The notes under the pieces are model-generated. The model had not been told where the DNA came from. It saw only the letters and a program-made list of their open reading frames with translations, and made no database searches. 64,000 nucleotides of DNA from Streptococcaceae bacterium. Its GTDB lineage: Bacteria > Bacillota > Bacilli > Lactobacillales > Streptococcaceae. Each line of letters starts with the position of its first letter. Within the stretch, counting starts at the first letter, position 1. Made by a program: the position numbers and the translations under genes. The stretch lies in assembly GCA_022484805.1 (NCBI GenBank), contig JAKVKP010000012.1, positions 1 through 64,000 on the forward strand, read 5' to 3'. Below, one piece after another: positions 41,374 to 45,274 of this stretch.

Positions 41374-42069
41374 TCAATACGAATGCGTAAAATAAATCGG
41401 ATGTTTTCGGCAAACGATATCTGAAAGGTTGTCAAGGATAACTTGTAAATCTTCGCTATTGTTTTCATATCTATTGAATTTGCAATTAGCAAGTAAATCG
41501 GCAATTTGAATAGCTTTATGTTTTGATGAATCTAAATATTTAGTTTCAAACGGAACATTCGTAGTCGTGAAATTTCGTAAATAATTATTTTTAAAATAAT
41601 TGTTCAAGTATACTGGGAAACTATCTCTATTAACTATCTTCGTTTGATTTTGATTATCGATGAAAACGTTTATTTTCGATATATCAGAGAAGTTTTGTTT
41701 TTTTATTTGTTTTATTGTATCCTCAACCAATCTTCTTAAGATGTAATTTTTATGTAATTGAACTGCCTGTTTGTTATCAAAATCAATAGATATTTCTGAT
41801 ACTTTGCTAGCTATAAAAATAGGGTTAAAACAATCTTGACATTCAGAAACTAGCTTTCTTAAAACTTTTCTTTTATATTTATGTTTCATGTTACTGCTTT
41901 TTATTTCTTTTTTTGTGTGATAAATCTTACTCATTTGAATTGAATAAGTTTTTGAAATTTTTTGACTATCTTCGGCTAAGCACCAATAACCACCATAGAT
42001 AAAGTAATCTGAATAATAATTAGTATGTAATTGACCTGAATCGTCAATGTAAATATTTATTTCTTCCAT
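41374..42069 (-). CDS. DUF3800 domain protein
   Basis: About 231 residues. It opens with INIYIDDSGQLHTN, the DUF3800 signature Asp pair. The middle has INVFIDNQNQTK and the end HKAIQIADLLANCKFNRYE, the conserved D in an IQ-x-ADLLA motif. DUF3800 proteins are suspected to have an RNase H-like fold and often occur in prophages and defence loci; the activity is unknown. The start is ATG 42069 with GAGGAAAA upstream. A 10-bp inverted repeat (42076-42085 with 42108-42117) includes this RBS, so translation may be controlled. It sits between int and the Ltp gene, a place where prophages carry host-benefit genes. Confidence 0.8.
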   Translation of the reverse strand: MEEINIYIDDSGQLHTNYYSDYFIYGGYWCLAEDSQKISKTYSIQMSKIYHTKKEIKSSNMKHKYKRKVLRKLVSECQDCFNPIFIASKVSEISIDFDNKQAVQLHKNYILRRLVEDTIKQIKKQNFSDISKINVFIDNQNQTKIVNRDSFPVYLNNYFKNNYLRNFTTTNVPFETKYLDSSKHKAIQIADLLANCKFNRYENNSEDLQVILDNLSDIVCRKHPIYFTHSY

Positions 42070-42087
42070 ACTTTTCCTCATTTCTGA

Positions 42088-42155: not shown

Positions 42156-42710
42156 TTAGTCATTTAAATGTTGGATAGCGTAATCTGCTTCCTCTTGTGT
42201 AAATTGTTCCCCGTGTTCTGATGTTAATTGGTCTCTTATTGATTCTGGTGACATAGACATAGTTTCTTGATACGATTTTGCTTTAGCTAAAGCATTCGCA
42301 TTGAAATCTGCATTTAAATTATCAACTGCATATTGTGCAGCTTCAGCAGAAAATTTTTCTCCATTTTCTGATACTAATTGATTATAAATTCCAATCTTTG
42401 ACATGTTCATGAGAGATGAATATGATTTCGCTTTATTTAATGCAGACTTATATTCAGTAGGTACACTTTCTTTGGACTCTTCAGTAGAAGATGATTCACT
42501 AGTTGAAGACGATGATTCTTCAATTGTAGAAGAACTAGATGATACTTCTGTAGTAGTATCTGTACTTGCAGTTTCTTTCTTATCTCCACCTTGACCACCA
42601 AGATAACCAACAATAATAACTACCACGATTAACCAAAACCACCATTTTTTATAAAAAGGTTTCTTTAATTTGTAAACATTCCCATTTTCATCCTTAATCT
42701 TCTTTGCCAT
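42156..42710 (-). CDS. Ltp-type superinfection exclusion protein
   Basis: 184 residues. Cytoplasmic Lys-rich start (1-25), one transmembrane helix (WWFWLIVVVIIVGYLGG, about 24-40), a Ser/Thr/Glu-rich linker (about 45-85) and two Ltp repeats: YKSALNKAKSYSSLMNMSKIGIYNQLVSENGEKFSAEAAQYAVDNL and ALAKAKSYQETMSMSPESIRDQLTSEHGEQFTQEEADYAIQHL. The same repeat in the Streptococcus thermophilus phage TP-J34 protein blocks DNA injection by related phages. Unlike TP-J34 Ltp there is no lipobox cysteine; the anchor is the helix. Lysogenic expression is likely from position. Confidence 0.88.
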   Translation of the reverse strand: MAKKIKDENGNVYKLKKPFYKKWWFWLIVVVIIVGYLGGQGGDKKETASTDTTTEVSSSSSTIEESSSSTSESSSTEESKESVPTEYKSALNKAKSYSSLMNMSKIGIYNQLVSENGEKFSAEAAQYAVDNLNADFNANALAKAKSYQETMSMSPESIRDQLTSEHGEQFTQEEADYAIQHLND

Positions 42711-42784: not shown

Positions 42785-43192
42785 CTATCCTAAATAATAC
42801 TCTGATAATTCTTCCTTTATCAACCATTCATTAGTTGATGTTAATGGTAAATCGATTATCTCGGCAACTCTTTTCCAATTTAGAATAGAGCTTTCATCAT
42901 TATCACAATAATCAATTACATCTCTGATTTCTTTCTTAATCATATCCCTATTTGCATCTGCTTCTATTCGAGAATGAGCAGTATATGTTTTATTGTATAC
43001 GCTTTGCATTTCAGTATGATTTAAAACATGGCTCATTTCATGATAGAAAACACGCAATAAATCTTTTTCTTCTAGATTATTATTTAAAAAAATGAATTTT
43101 TCTTCTCTGACGAAAATATATCCACCTTCAGCTTCCATATCACAAAACATGAGTATCACGCCGTGTTGTTTAGCAATTTCTTTGATTGTCAA
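42785..43192 (-). CDS. ImmA/IrrE family metallopeptidase
   Basis: 135 residues with the zinc motif FYHEMSHVLNHTE (HExxH) near residue 50. In ICEBs1 and related phages ImmA cleaves the partner repressor when DNA damage signals arrive. It lies 15 bases after the CI-like repressor gene, so both share a transcript. The repressor is too short for self-cleavage, which fits an ImmA-dependent switch. Confidence 0.88.
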   Translation of the reverse strand: MTIKEIAKQHGVILMFCDMEAEGGYIFVREEKFIFLNNNLEEKDLLRVFYHEMSHVLNHTEMQSVYNKTYTAHSRIEADANRDMIKKEIRDVIDYCDNDESSILNWKRVAEIIDLPLTSTNEWLIKEELSEYYLG

Positions 43193-43207: not shown

Positions 43208-43531
43208 TTAATCTTTTTTGTTATCAAAATATCCTTTAAGTAGTGCCTTGATGGTTGCTCTATCAACATCATTTAATTTTTTCCCACTGTACAACATCGC
43301 AACATCGATAGAGTCTTCTAAATCTTCATTCAAAGATACACTGTCACGATCTAACAAATAATCGATAGAAACCCCAAAATAATCCGCAACTTTTTCTAGA
43401 GTTTCAGCTTTAGGACTACTTGTTTTCCATTTATAAAATGCATGTCTGCTAAGTCCTAATTCCTCAGCTAAATCAGTTAAGTTAATATTTCTTTGTTTAG
43501 CAAGTTTTGATACATTATCGAATAATGACAT
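43208..43531 (-). CDS. CI-like repressor, XRE family
   Basis: 107 residues. An HTH_XRE domain (about 4-60: LAKQRNINLTDLAEELGLSRHAFYKWKTSSPKAETLEKVADYFGVSIDYLL) and a short acidic tail, with no peptidase domain. It should repress the early genes by binding the operators at 43561-43781. Start preceded by AAGGTGG. Likely inactivated by the ImmA-type protease encoded next. Confidence 0.9.
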   Translation of the reverse strand: MSLFDNVSKLAKQRNINLTDLAEELGLSRHAFYKWKTSSPKAETLEKVADYFGVSIDYLLDRDSVSLNEDLEDSIDVAMLYSGKKLNDVDRATIKALLKGYFDNKKD

Positions 43532-43584
43532 ATTACCACCTTTTCAACAACGATCAATTTTTATAAAAAATTCTACACTTTTTG

Positions 43585-43613
43585 TTGACAAGTAGAAAGT
43601 TTTATAATATATT
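43585..43613 (+). promoter_or_regulatory. rightward early promoter (PR-like)
   Basis: TTGACA (43585-43590), 17 bases, TATATT (43608-43613). The spacer is the 16-bp operator-like sequence. The start would be near 43620, giving a leader of about 200 nt before the cro-like gene. Confidence 0.7.
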
Positions 43614-43731
43614 AATCGTGTAAGTAAATTTGATAGAAAAAAGCGTAATTAAAAATGACCTATTAAATCCACGTTTGGCGACGATTAAAGATTAAAAAGG
43701 TTTATTTATTAGCTTATTTAACTATGTTTTG

Positions 43732-43760
43732 ATTTTATAAAACTTTCTACTGATTGTCAA
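43732..43760 (-). promoter_or_regulatory. leftward lysogenic promoter (PL-like)
   Basis: On the minus strand, TTGACA (43760-43755), 17 bases, TAAAAT (43737-43732), with the same operator sequence in the spacer. It points at the repressor gene about 200 bases away. It therefore faces the rightward promoter and the two transcripts overlap by about 100 nt. Confidence 0.7.
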
Positions 43761-43821
43761 TTATTTTATAAAAAAATCTATCATTTTTACTTACGTATTA
43801 TTTAGGAAGGAAGTGAATGCT

Positions 43822-44013
43822 ATGCCGAACTTAGATAGCGGTCGTGAAAAAATCAGAAAGTATATCTCAGAAAACGATATTAATATTACTGATTTAGCGA
43901 CTGGTTATGGGTTGCAAAGAACTGATTTAAGTAATTATCTGAATGGAAAAATTGATAATTTAAAATCTCGTCAAATTGTTTTACGTATCATTTCAGATTT
44001 AAAAATTCGATAG
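43822..44013 (+). CDS. Cro-like DNA-binding protein
   Basis: 63 residues with an HTH-type sequence, REKIRKYISENDINITDLATGYGLQRTDLSNYLNGK. First rightward gene after the immunity region, so a Cro-like role is inferred. ATG 43822 has AAGGAAG at 8 bases; the in-frame GTG 43813 abuts the RBS. Confidence 0.75.
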   Translation: MPNLDSGREKIRKYISENDINITDLATGYGLQRTDLSNYLNGKIDNLKSRQIVLRIISDLKIR

Positions 44014-44497: not shown

Positions 44498-45274
44498 ATG
44501 AACAATTTAAAAGTAACAGGTACACAAACAATCGGGTCAATTCAATTTACAAGAATTGAAGGAGGATTCGGAGAAGGTAAAAAAGCAATGTTGGTTAAAG
44601 ATATTGCAGAAATTCATGGAACAGATGTTAGGTCGATTAATCAAGCAATCAATCGAAATAGAAAAAGATTTTTAGAAGCCAAAGATATTATTGATTTAAA
44701 ATTCGCTATCACACAAAGTGACACCGAAATAAGTGATTATGGTTTTACCCAAAATTCTTTCAACGCTTCAAAAAACATTTATCTTTTATCTGAACGTGGA
44801 TATGCGAAGTTGCTTAAAATTCTTGAAGATGATAAAGCTTGGGAAATTTATGATCAGCTAGTTGATAACTATTTCAGCATGAGAAAAGAACAAGAATTCA
44901 AAATTCCTAAGTCAACTAGAGATTTATCATTATTGGCATTACAAGCAAACGAGGAAACAAACGAGCGATTGGATGATGTTGAAAACCGCATTACAAACTT
45001 TGAAGAAAATAAGCTGATTACTTCAGAGGACGTAGGAACGATTGGCCGTCATGTTCGCAATAAAGTTTATCAGTTCGCTAATGATCGTCATTTAGGCAAG
45101 GAAGCTGTCAGCATGTTATACCAAGACCTTAACTCTAGCGTTAAACAAGTTTTTAATGTTCCAAATCGTGGTCGAATTAAAGATAAAGATTTTCAAGATG
45201 TTTTAGATTTTATTAATTCTTGGGAACCATCATCAGTAACTAAGGCAAAAATTAGTCAAATGTCTTTATTTTAA
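44498..45274 (+). CDS. phage antirepressor (ORF6N + ORF6C)
   Basis: 258 residues. An N-terminal ORF6N/KilA-N-type DNA-binding domain (about 15-120: MLVKDIAEIHGTDVRSINQAINRNRKRFLEAKDI ... IYLLSERGYAKLLKIL) and a C-terminal ORF6C domain (about 140-250: VGTIGRHVRNKVYQFANDRHLGKEAVSMLYQDLNSSVKQVFNVPNRGRI). Antirepressors of this type counteract the CI repressor and promote lytic growth. RBS AAAGGAAG. Confidence 0.92.
   Translation: MNNLKVTGTQTIGSIQFTRIEGGFGEGKKAMLVKDIAEIHGTDVRSINQAINRNRKRFLEAKDIIDLKFAITQSDTEISDYGFTQNSFNASKNIYLLSERGYAKLLKILEDDKAWEIYDQLVDNYFSMRKEQEFKIPKSTRDLSLLALQANEETNERLDDVENRITNFEENKLITSEDVGTIGRHVRNKVYQFANDRHLGKEAVSMLYQDLNSSVKQVFNVPNRGRIKDKDFQDVLDFINSWEPSSVTKAKISQMSLF

Follow-up and report, generated by a model that had tools for sequence, protein, structure and literature searches.

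Face-to-face lytic and lysogenic promoters with a shared operator word, and a possible antisense hairpin between them, in a family of Streptococcaceae prophages

The region between the cI-like and cro-like genes in the window (the whole 64,000-nucleotide stretch of DNA that was analysed) is probably the lysis-lysogeny switch of a temperate phage, consisting of two convergent transcription units that exclude each other and in which CI operators, transcriptional interference and kissing of the two leaders would act together. The convergent architecture, as judged from comparative sequence analysis, is almost certainly real, conserved and widespread. The features on which this reading is based are listed in Table 1. 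The cI-like gene, whose ATG at 43531 is preceded by the Shine-Dalgarno (SD) sequence AAGGTGG, is followed by a gene for an ImmA/IrrE-like peptidase, and the integrase gene is located further to the left of both. The cro-like protein has 66 aa if translated from the GTG at 43813 and 63 aa if translated from the ATG at 43822, with the SD sequence AGGAAGG at 43804-43810. The lysogeny module also contains, beside the ImmA-like gene, a gene for an Ltp-like lipoprotein (42156-42710, minus strand; Pfam 1.7e-47, PHROG superinfection exclusion 2.8e-69), and a gene for a DUF3800 protein (41374-42081, minus strand) lies between those of the integrase and the lipoprotein.

Table 1. Features of the predicted switch region, in order of position in the window
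Feature	Position	Strand	Details
ImmA/IrrE-like M78 metallopeptidase, downstream of cI	42785-43192	-	Pfam PF06114 3.6e-6; PHROG 87 9e-13
cI-like repressor, 107 aa, Cro/C1-type HTH	43208-43531	-	Pfam HTH_26 3.2e-10; PHROG 8 transcriptional regulator 1.1e-21
O1, putative CI operator copy, inverted, upstream of the P_R -35 box	43561-43576	-	2 mismatches; inverted copy conserved at this place, z = 15.7
Predicted lytic promoter P_R	43585-43613	+	TTGACA 43585-43590, 17 nt, TATATT 43608-43613; start expected near 43620
O2, putative CI operator in the P_R spacer	43592-43607	+	GTAGAAAGTTTTATAA; word shared within phages, follows the CI recognition helix
5' arm of second inverted pair	43620-43637	+	at the expected P_R start; conserved complementarity with the 3' arm, z = 16.8
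Predicted leader overlap, complementary, in both RNAs	43620-43725		about 106 nt, from the -10 positions
Core of putative antisense hairpin, CGU-UUGGCG-ACG	43672-43683	+	hexaloop 43675-43680; weaker outer pairing about 43658-43701; covariation in relatives
Predicted lysogenic promoter P_L	43732-43760	-	TTGACA 43760-43755, 17 nt, TAAAAT 43737-43732; start expected near 43725
O3, putative CI operator in the P_L spacer	43735-43750	-	GTAGAAAGTTTTATAA; word shared within phages, follows the CI recognition helix
3' arm of second inverted pair	43777-43794	+	just upstream of the cro SD
cro-like HTH protein	43813-44013	+	Pfam HTH_26 5.6e-5; PHROG 1337 1.3e-9
ORF6N/ORF6C antirepressor, early operon, right of the switch	44498-45274	+	Pfam 4e-14 and 1.3e-11

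The positions, spacing and sequences of P_R and P_L were exactly as given in the initial annotation, and the two promoters, each with 11 of 12 consensus positions, are the top two matches in the 2.5 kb that were scanned, within which no further promoter match scored as high. In the whole 64-kb window there is a single facing pair with the geometry of P_R and P_L, and none turned up in 100 dinucleotide shuffles. Chance as an explanation of the facing pair was ruled out by these shuffles of the window and by Markov controls on the homologues. With starts placed from the -10 positions, the leaders would be about 195-200 nt each, and a scan of the window region for promoters and terminators found no intrinsic terminator in them.

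The convergent reading is strongly backed by conservation, and the idea that this arrangement might be a peculiarity of one phage was not borne out, as it belongs to a widespread family of predicted convergent switches. The homologous regions, located upstream of CI homologues, were gathered mainly by CI protein similarity; three regions first found by DNA similarity (L003-L005) and one found by DNA similarity that is also a CI protein match (L002) were counted as well. Sets ascertained by the pattern itself were kept out of the statistics, since the motif was part of the query, and a scan of genomes for the architecture only, among whose listed matches were Ruminococcus loci other than phage switches, was left out of the prevalence. 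At a threshold of at least 20 of 24 consensus matches, a convergent pair was detected in 68 of 91 non-redundant CI-upstream regions versus 0.05% in Markov-1 controls; 23 regions had no convergent pair at this threshold, and 17 of the 91 also had a divergent pair. When the starts were placed 6-7 nt after the -10 boxes, the leader overlap across the family had a mean of 106 nt and a range of 88-120.

Four of the counted regions, from another prophage of the same genome (L002), Streptococcus phage MissE1 (L003), E. gallinarum phiEG37K (L004) and E. hirae EH-TP1 (L005), all have facing promoters with -35 boxes 163-178 bp apart, and each phage has its own spacer word, its two spacers being alike. 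The same layout was found in S. pneumoniae MM1 and IPP25, S. oralis PH10, S. pyogenes MGAS315 Javan507 and MGAS5005 Javan513, S. suis phiS10, S. agalactiae phiGBSVK-C, S. equi Javan179, E. faecalis Efs 1-1-1 and Enterococcus vB_ElaS_B1578, and no convergent pair was present in the inspected regions of Listeria A118 and S. thermophilus Sfi21. The layout recurs in prophages of streptococci, lactococci and enterococci. Within Streptococcaceae, most switches with a CI of this family seem to be convergent, those in prophages of S. pyogenes, S. agalactiae, S. suis and S. pneumoniae among them. The genome studied here encodes three CI homologues, and the switch of its second prophage (L002, 1494-1792) is convergent as well, with a different operator word and with the hexaloop described below on the opposite strand.

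Two elements of the initial annotation, the same 16-bp word in inverted orientation in both spacers and a near-copy at 43561, were present as claimed. The word, GTAGAAAGTTTTATAA, has exactly two copies in the window, those in the spacers, and the left promoter has it 3 nt farther from the -35 box than the right one does. O1 and O2 form a pair of facing sites at P_R, 31 bp apart, and P_L has one site, O3. A candidate fourth copy at 43766-43781 has 4 mismatches as counted by eye; a fourth operator at 43766 received little comparative support and was set aside. Copies upstream of P_L were weak across the family (z of 2.4-5.1 vs z = 15.7 for the inverted copy at P_R).

It had also been proposed that the shared word is a repressor operator, and the comparative data agree with this, in that the word changes in concert at both promoters and tracks the CI recognition helix. 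The spacer word differs from phage to phage and is common to both spacers of one phage, with a mean spacer similarity of 8.03 within a phage versus 4.49 between phages (z = 20.7, 0 of 20,000 permutations). Similarity of the spacer words was correlated with similarity of the CI recognition helices (rho 0.257, 0 of 1000 permutations). Because it follows the recognition helix of CI, the spacer word is most likely the CI operator, a conclusion in which we place high confidence. For instance, the helix YSRNTLYKLK is associated with CACC..GGTG-like words in L232, L240 and L249 despite their differing leaders, and the helix MGxNSLYAW with ACTAGCAAAAAGTTTA in L271 and L300. When CIs with either YSRNTLYKLK or YGRNTLYKIK are considered (L232, L240, L249 and L283), the operators are CACC..GGTG-like irrespective of the leader or the cro gene, and there are hints in these cases that a helix-operator code may be readable. 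The table of operators and recognition helices, with entries such as YSRNTLYKLK with CACC..GGTG, also offers a basis from which immunity groups could be predicted.

In the middle of the leader overlap, the hexamer UUGGCG was found in 39 of 60 members of the family, versus 0.8% expected in shuffled sequence, on the strand of P_R (lytic) in 26 and on that of P_L (lysogenic) in 13. The exact hexamer is missing in the other 21, some of which have other GC-rich loops and some of which have no recognisable hairpin. The two bases on either side of UUGGCG can pair with each other in all 38 distinct sequences, through U-A, C-G and A-U pairs next to the loop and G-C, C-G, U-A and U-G pairs at the following position. 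In an alignment of 31 sequences, which includes two named phages chosen from the CI protein search, the three closing pairs were 91.4% paired, with a covariation of 1.02 versus 0.25 in shuffled sequences and at most 0.17 in slid controls. Such a pattern, in which the asymmetric core stays constant and the flanks vary freely but remain complementary, marks a hexaloop on a stem and not a linear protein-binding site, and we consider an RNA hairpin in the overlap to be very likely. The covarying core of the stem comprises just 3-4 bp, with the outer pairing shifting in position, and RNAalifold on MAFFT alignments recovered the short core alone. A single consensus fold for the whole overlap was dropped for the same reason. 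A search of Rfam up to an E-value of 5 gave one match in the window, far below its gathering score, and no matches at the gathering score among 10 relatives.

The same hexamer forms the loop motif of the ColIb-P9 Inc RNA (Asano et al. 1998, as cited in PMC10724649), and it fits YUNR, the U-turn motif that occurs in the recognition loop of the sense or the antisense RNA in loop-loop systems (PMC4485353). The predicted hairpin with its YUNR loop would be located in a region common to two complementary RNAs, both of which we infer from the promoters. The occurrence of the loop on either strand fits a pairing function, since the opposite transcript automatically carries the complement. The earlier suggestion that antisense pairing contributes to the decision was supported in so far as a UUGGCG hairpin with covarying closing pairs is present, on one strand or the other, at the centre of the overlap; the pairing of the leaders itself we infer. 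That antisense kissing is a working part of the switch seems to us slightly favoured by these observations.

Loops of other kinds and in other places were also seen. In some Enterococcus and Lactiplantibacillus phages (L536, L010 and L540), the centre between the promoters has, in place of UUGGCG, a loop of a second class, with the sequence CGUU-GGGG-AACG or the complement of this. Among the matches listed there were, in addition, intergenic loci in metagenome-assembled genomes of Ruminococcus and other Oscillospiraceae with facing near-consensus promoters 100-130 bp apart and no cI or cro neighbour (L329 4873-5052, L362 898-1076, L399 4663-4841, L316 989-1172, L318 869-1042 and L327 1199-1374). 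Between their promoters, the CGCCAA/UUGGCG hexaloop recurs on long hairpins that are rich in GC, two of them in L316; a 4.5S RNA gene and a tRNA gene are located within about 1 kb of the loci in L329, L362 and L399, and Rfam had no match at the locus. These loci are possibly a stand-alone antisense RNA pair.

The initial annotation had further described a second inverted pair outside the first. This pair exists (18 nt, 89% complementary), and its right arm only lies outside the first pair, the left arm being inside. Across the family, the 5' end of the P_R leader has remained complementary to the stretch just before the cro SD (z = 16.8), and no counterpart was found in the P_L leader (z = -0.3). 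Similarity of the second pair between phages was not found to track the CI recognition helix (rho 0.066, 92 of 1000 permutations). The pair may form a stem in the leader, to be opened by antisense pairing, or it may represent the sites of a second protein. For a Cro operator speaks the observation that phages with similar Cro proteins share the arms more (33 of 2000 permutations); against it, the arms in L003 and L263 are nearly identical and the Cro proteins are unrelated. The excess of G-U over A-C combinations in the pair is slight (49 to 33), and some of the arms resemble direct repeats of 11-12 bp; the Cox/Apl sites of P2/186-type switches are direct repeats at 10-11 bp, located between the promoters.

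These observations can be combined in a model of the switch. CI would bind the same operator in both promoter spacers and the third inverted copy beside P_R, as the sequence evidence strongly suggests. The pair of O1 and O2 would shut P_R firmly, and the single O3 would merely tune P_L; because of this two-to-one asymmetry of sites, CI could be made in the lysogen though both promoters carry the operator. When CI is lost, polymerase from P_R would run over P_L, and the reverse would take place in the lysogen, so that each active promoter would interfere with the other because polymerase runs across the opposing promoter. Each leader would fold a complementary hairpin in the overlap of about 106 nt, a structure to which covariation points, with the U-turn hexaloop UUGGCG on one of them. 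Contact between the loops may start the cI leader pairing with the cro leader, and whichever message is rarer would be sacrificed, either by being processed or by no longer being translated. Since neither ribosome-binding site is within the leader overlap, pairing would have to act via processing, structure or premature termination. If the two messages are mutually antisense, pairing alone matters, which would leave the loop free to be on either transcript. Jointly, the protein, polymerase and RNA layers would result in a sharp, heritable decision. For a large group of prophages of Streptococcus, Lactococcus and Enterococcus, the proposal that repressor and lytic mRNAs are mutually antisense, with kissing of the plasmid UUGGCG type added to the shared operators and the collisions of polymerases, is in our judgment evenly balanced between true and false.

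Alternatively, the switch might be convergent and depend, like that of 186, on nothing but CI operators and transcriptional interference, with the hairpin serving some other end, such as the stability of the leader, processing by RNase or the binding of an RNA-binding protein. This is a serious though rather unlikely alternative: all of the evidence on protein and operators stands without RNA pairing, the core of the stem is short, and loop-loop kissing is dispensable in pMV158 (PMC4485353). However, the loop is a known antisense-recognition motif in a stretch common to both RNAs, and it is found on either strand, whereas a hairpin that is bound by a protein or needed for stability should favour one transcript. 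Occurrence in both orientations would also be natural for a DNA element, and the central element, palindromic flanks included, might be a double-stranded DNA site that is bound by a conserved protein of the phage or the host. In P2-like phages, it is between promoters that face each other that proteins of the Cox/Apl type bind (PMC7498355). The constancy of the asymmetric core, with flanks that vary through many complementary combinations, makes such a site improbable. It is very improbable that one promoter alone is active, or that the true starts are divergent and beside each gene, the facing pair being decorative. The starts were deduced from the promoter sequences, and divergent pairs do occur in 17 of the 91 regions at the same threshold, but no other match in the 2.5 kb scanned equals the score of the facing pair, and both promoters and both operators are kept in most homologues. 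If the antisense layer of the switch with leader kissing is real, the weights of repressor, interference and antisense pairing would be separable in a cassette of 300 bp.

Switches of the face-to-face type have been worked out in P2 and 186, and in the Gram-positive phage TP901-1 the promoters are back-to-back. The contrast that the initial annotation drew with the switches of Gram-positive phages is right for TP901-1, in which cI and a small counterpart gene (MOR) are likewise on opposite strands and CI has several operators, but the promoters are arranged back-to-back around a central operator (PMC7250872), whereas here they face each other with operators in their spacers. Modules of the ICEBs1 ImmR/ImmA type share with this switch a gene order in which an M78 peptidase gene comes after the gene of a short HTH repressor, but their promoters are divergent (PMC11318856). 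Convergent promoters in the lysogeny module were predicted, and interference was suggested, for the Clostridium clostridioforme LM41 prophages phi5 and phi12; this is a prediction only, made in a passage that speaks neither of an operator common to the two spacers nor of an antisense hairpin (PMC11318856). In the open-access literature, to which the search was confined, this prediction was the one earlier claim of a convergent switch in a Gram-positive prophage (PMC11318856).

The present switch is set apart from those of 186/P2 and pCF10 because the promoter spacing and the regulator family, respectively, do not agree. As in P2 and 186, the predicted lytic and lysogenic promoters are face-to-face, the early transcripts would overlap and putative repressor operators lie over the lytic promoter (PMC7498355). 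However, P2-like promoters are 40-60 bp apart (PMC7498355) and the predicted starts here about 106 bp, and here there is also an operator in the lysogenic spacer and a UUGGCG hairpin in the overlap. The prgQ/prgX region of the Enterococcus plasmid pCF10 likewise has convergent promoters under a repressor, and an antisense RNA from the opposing promoter acts on the leader (PMC6540685). It is a switch of plasmid conjugation, though, its PrgX is a pheromone-binding RRNPP protein, whereas the repressor here has 107 aa with an HTH only and none of the RRNPP (TPR) character, and its anti-Q RNA works by forming a terminator, of which none was found in the leaders here. The copy-control RNAs of IncI, IncB and IncK plasmids (ColIb-P9 Inc RNA, RNAI) likewise carry a UUGGCG hexaloop on a hairpin and involve complementary RNAs. 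Those RNAs control plasmid replication, whereas here two mRNA leaders would be mutually antisense, with the loop on either of them, and if this antisense layer is real, the decision of a phage and the copy control of a plasmid would have one RNA recognition element in common.
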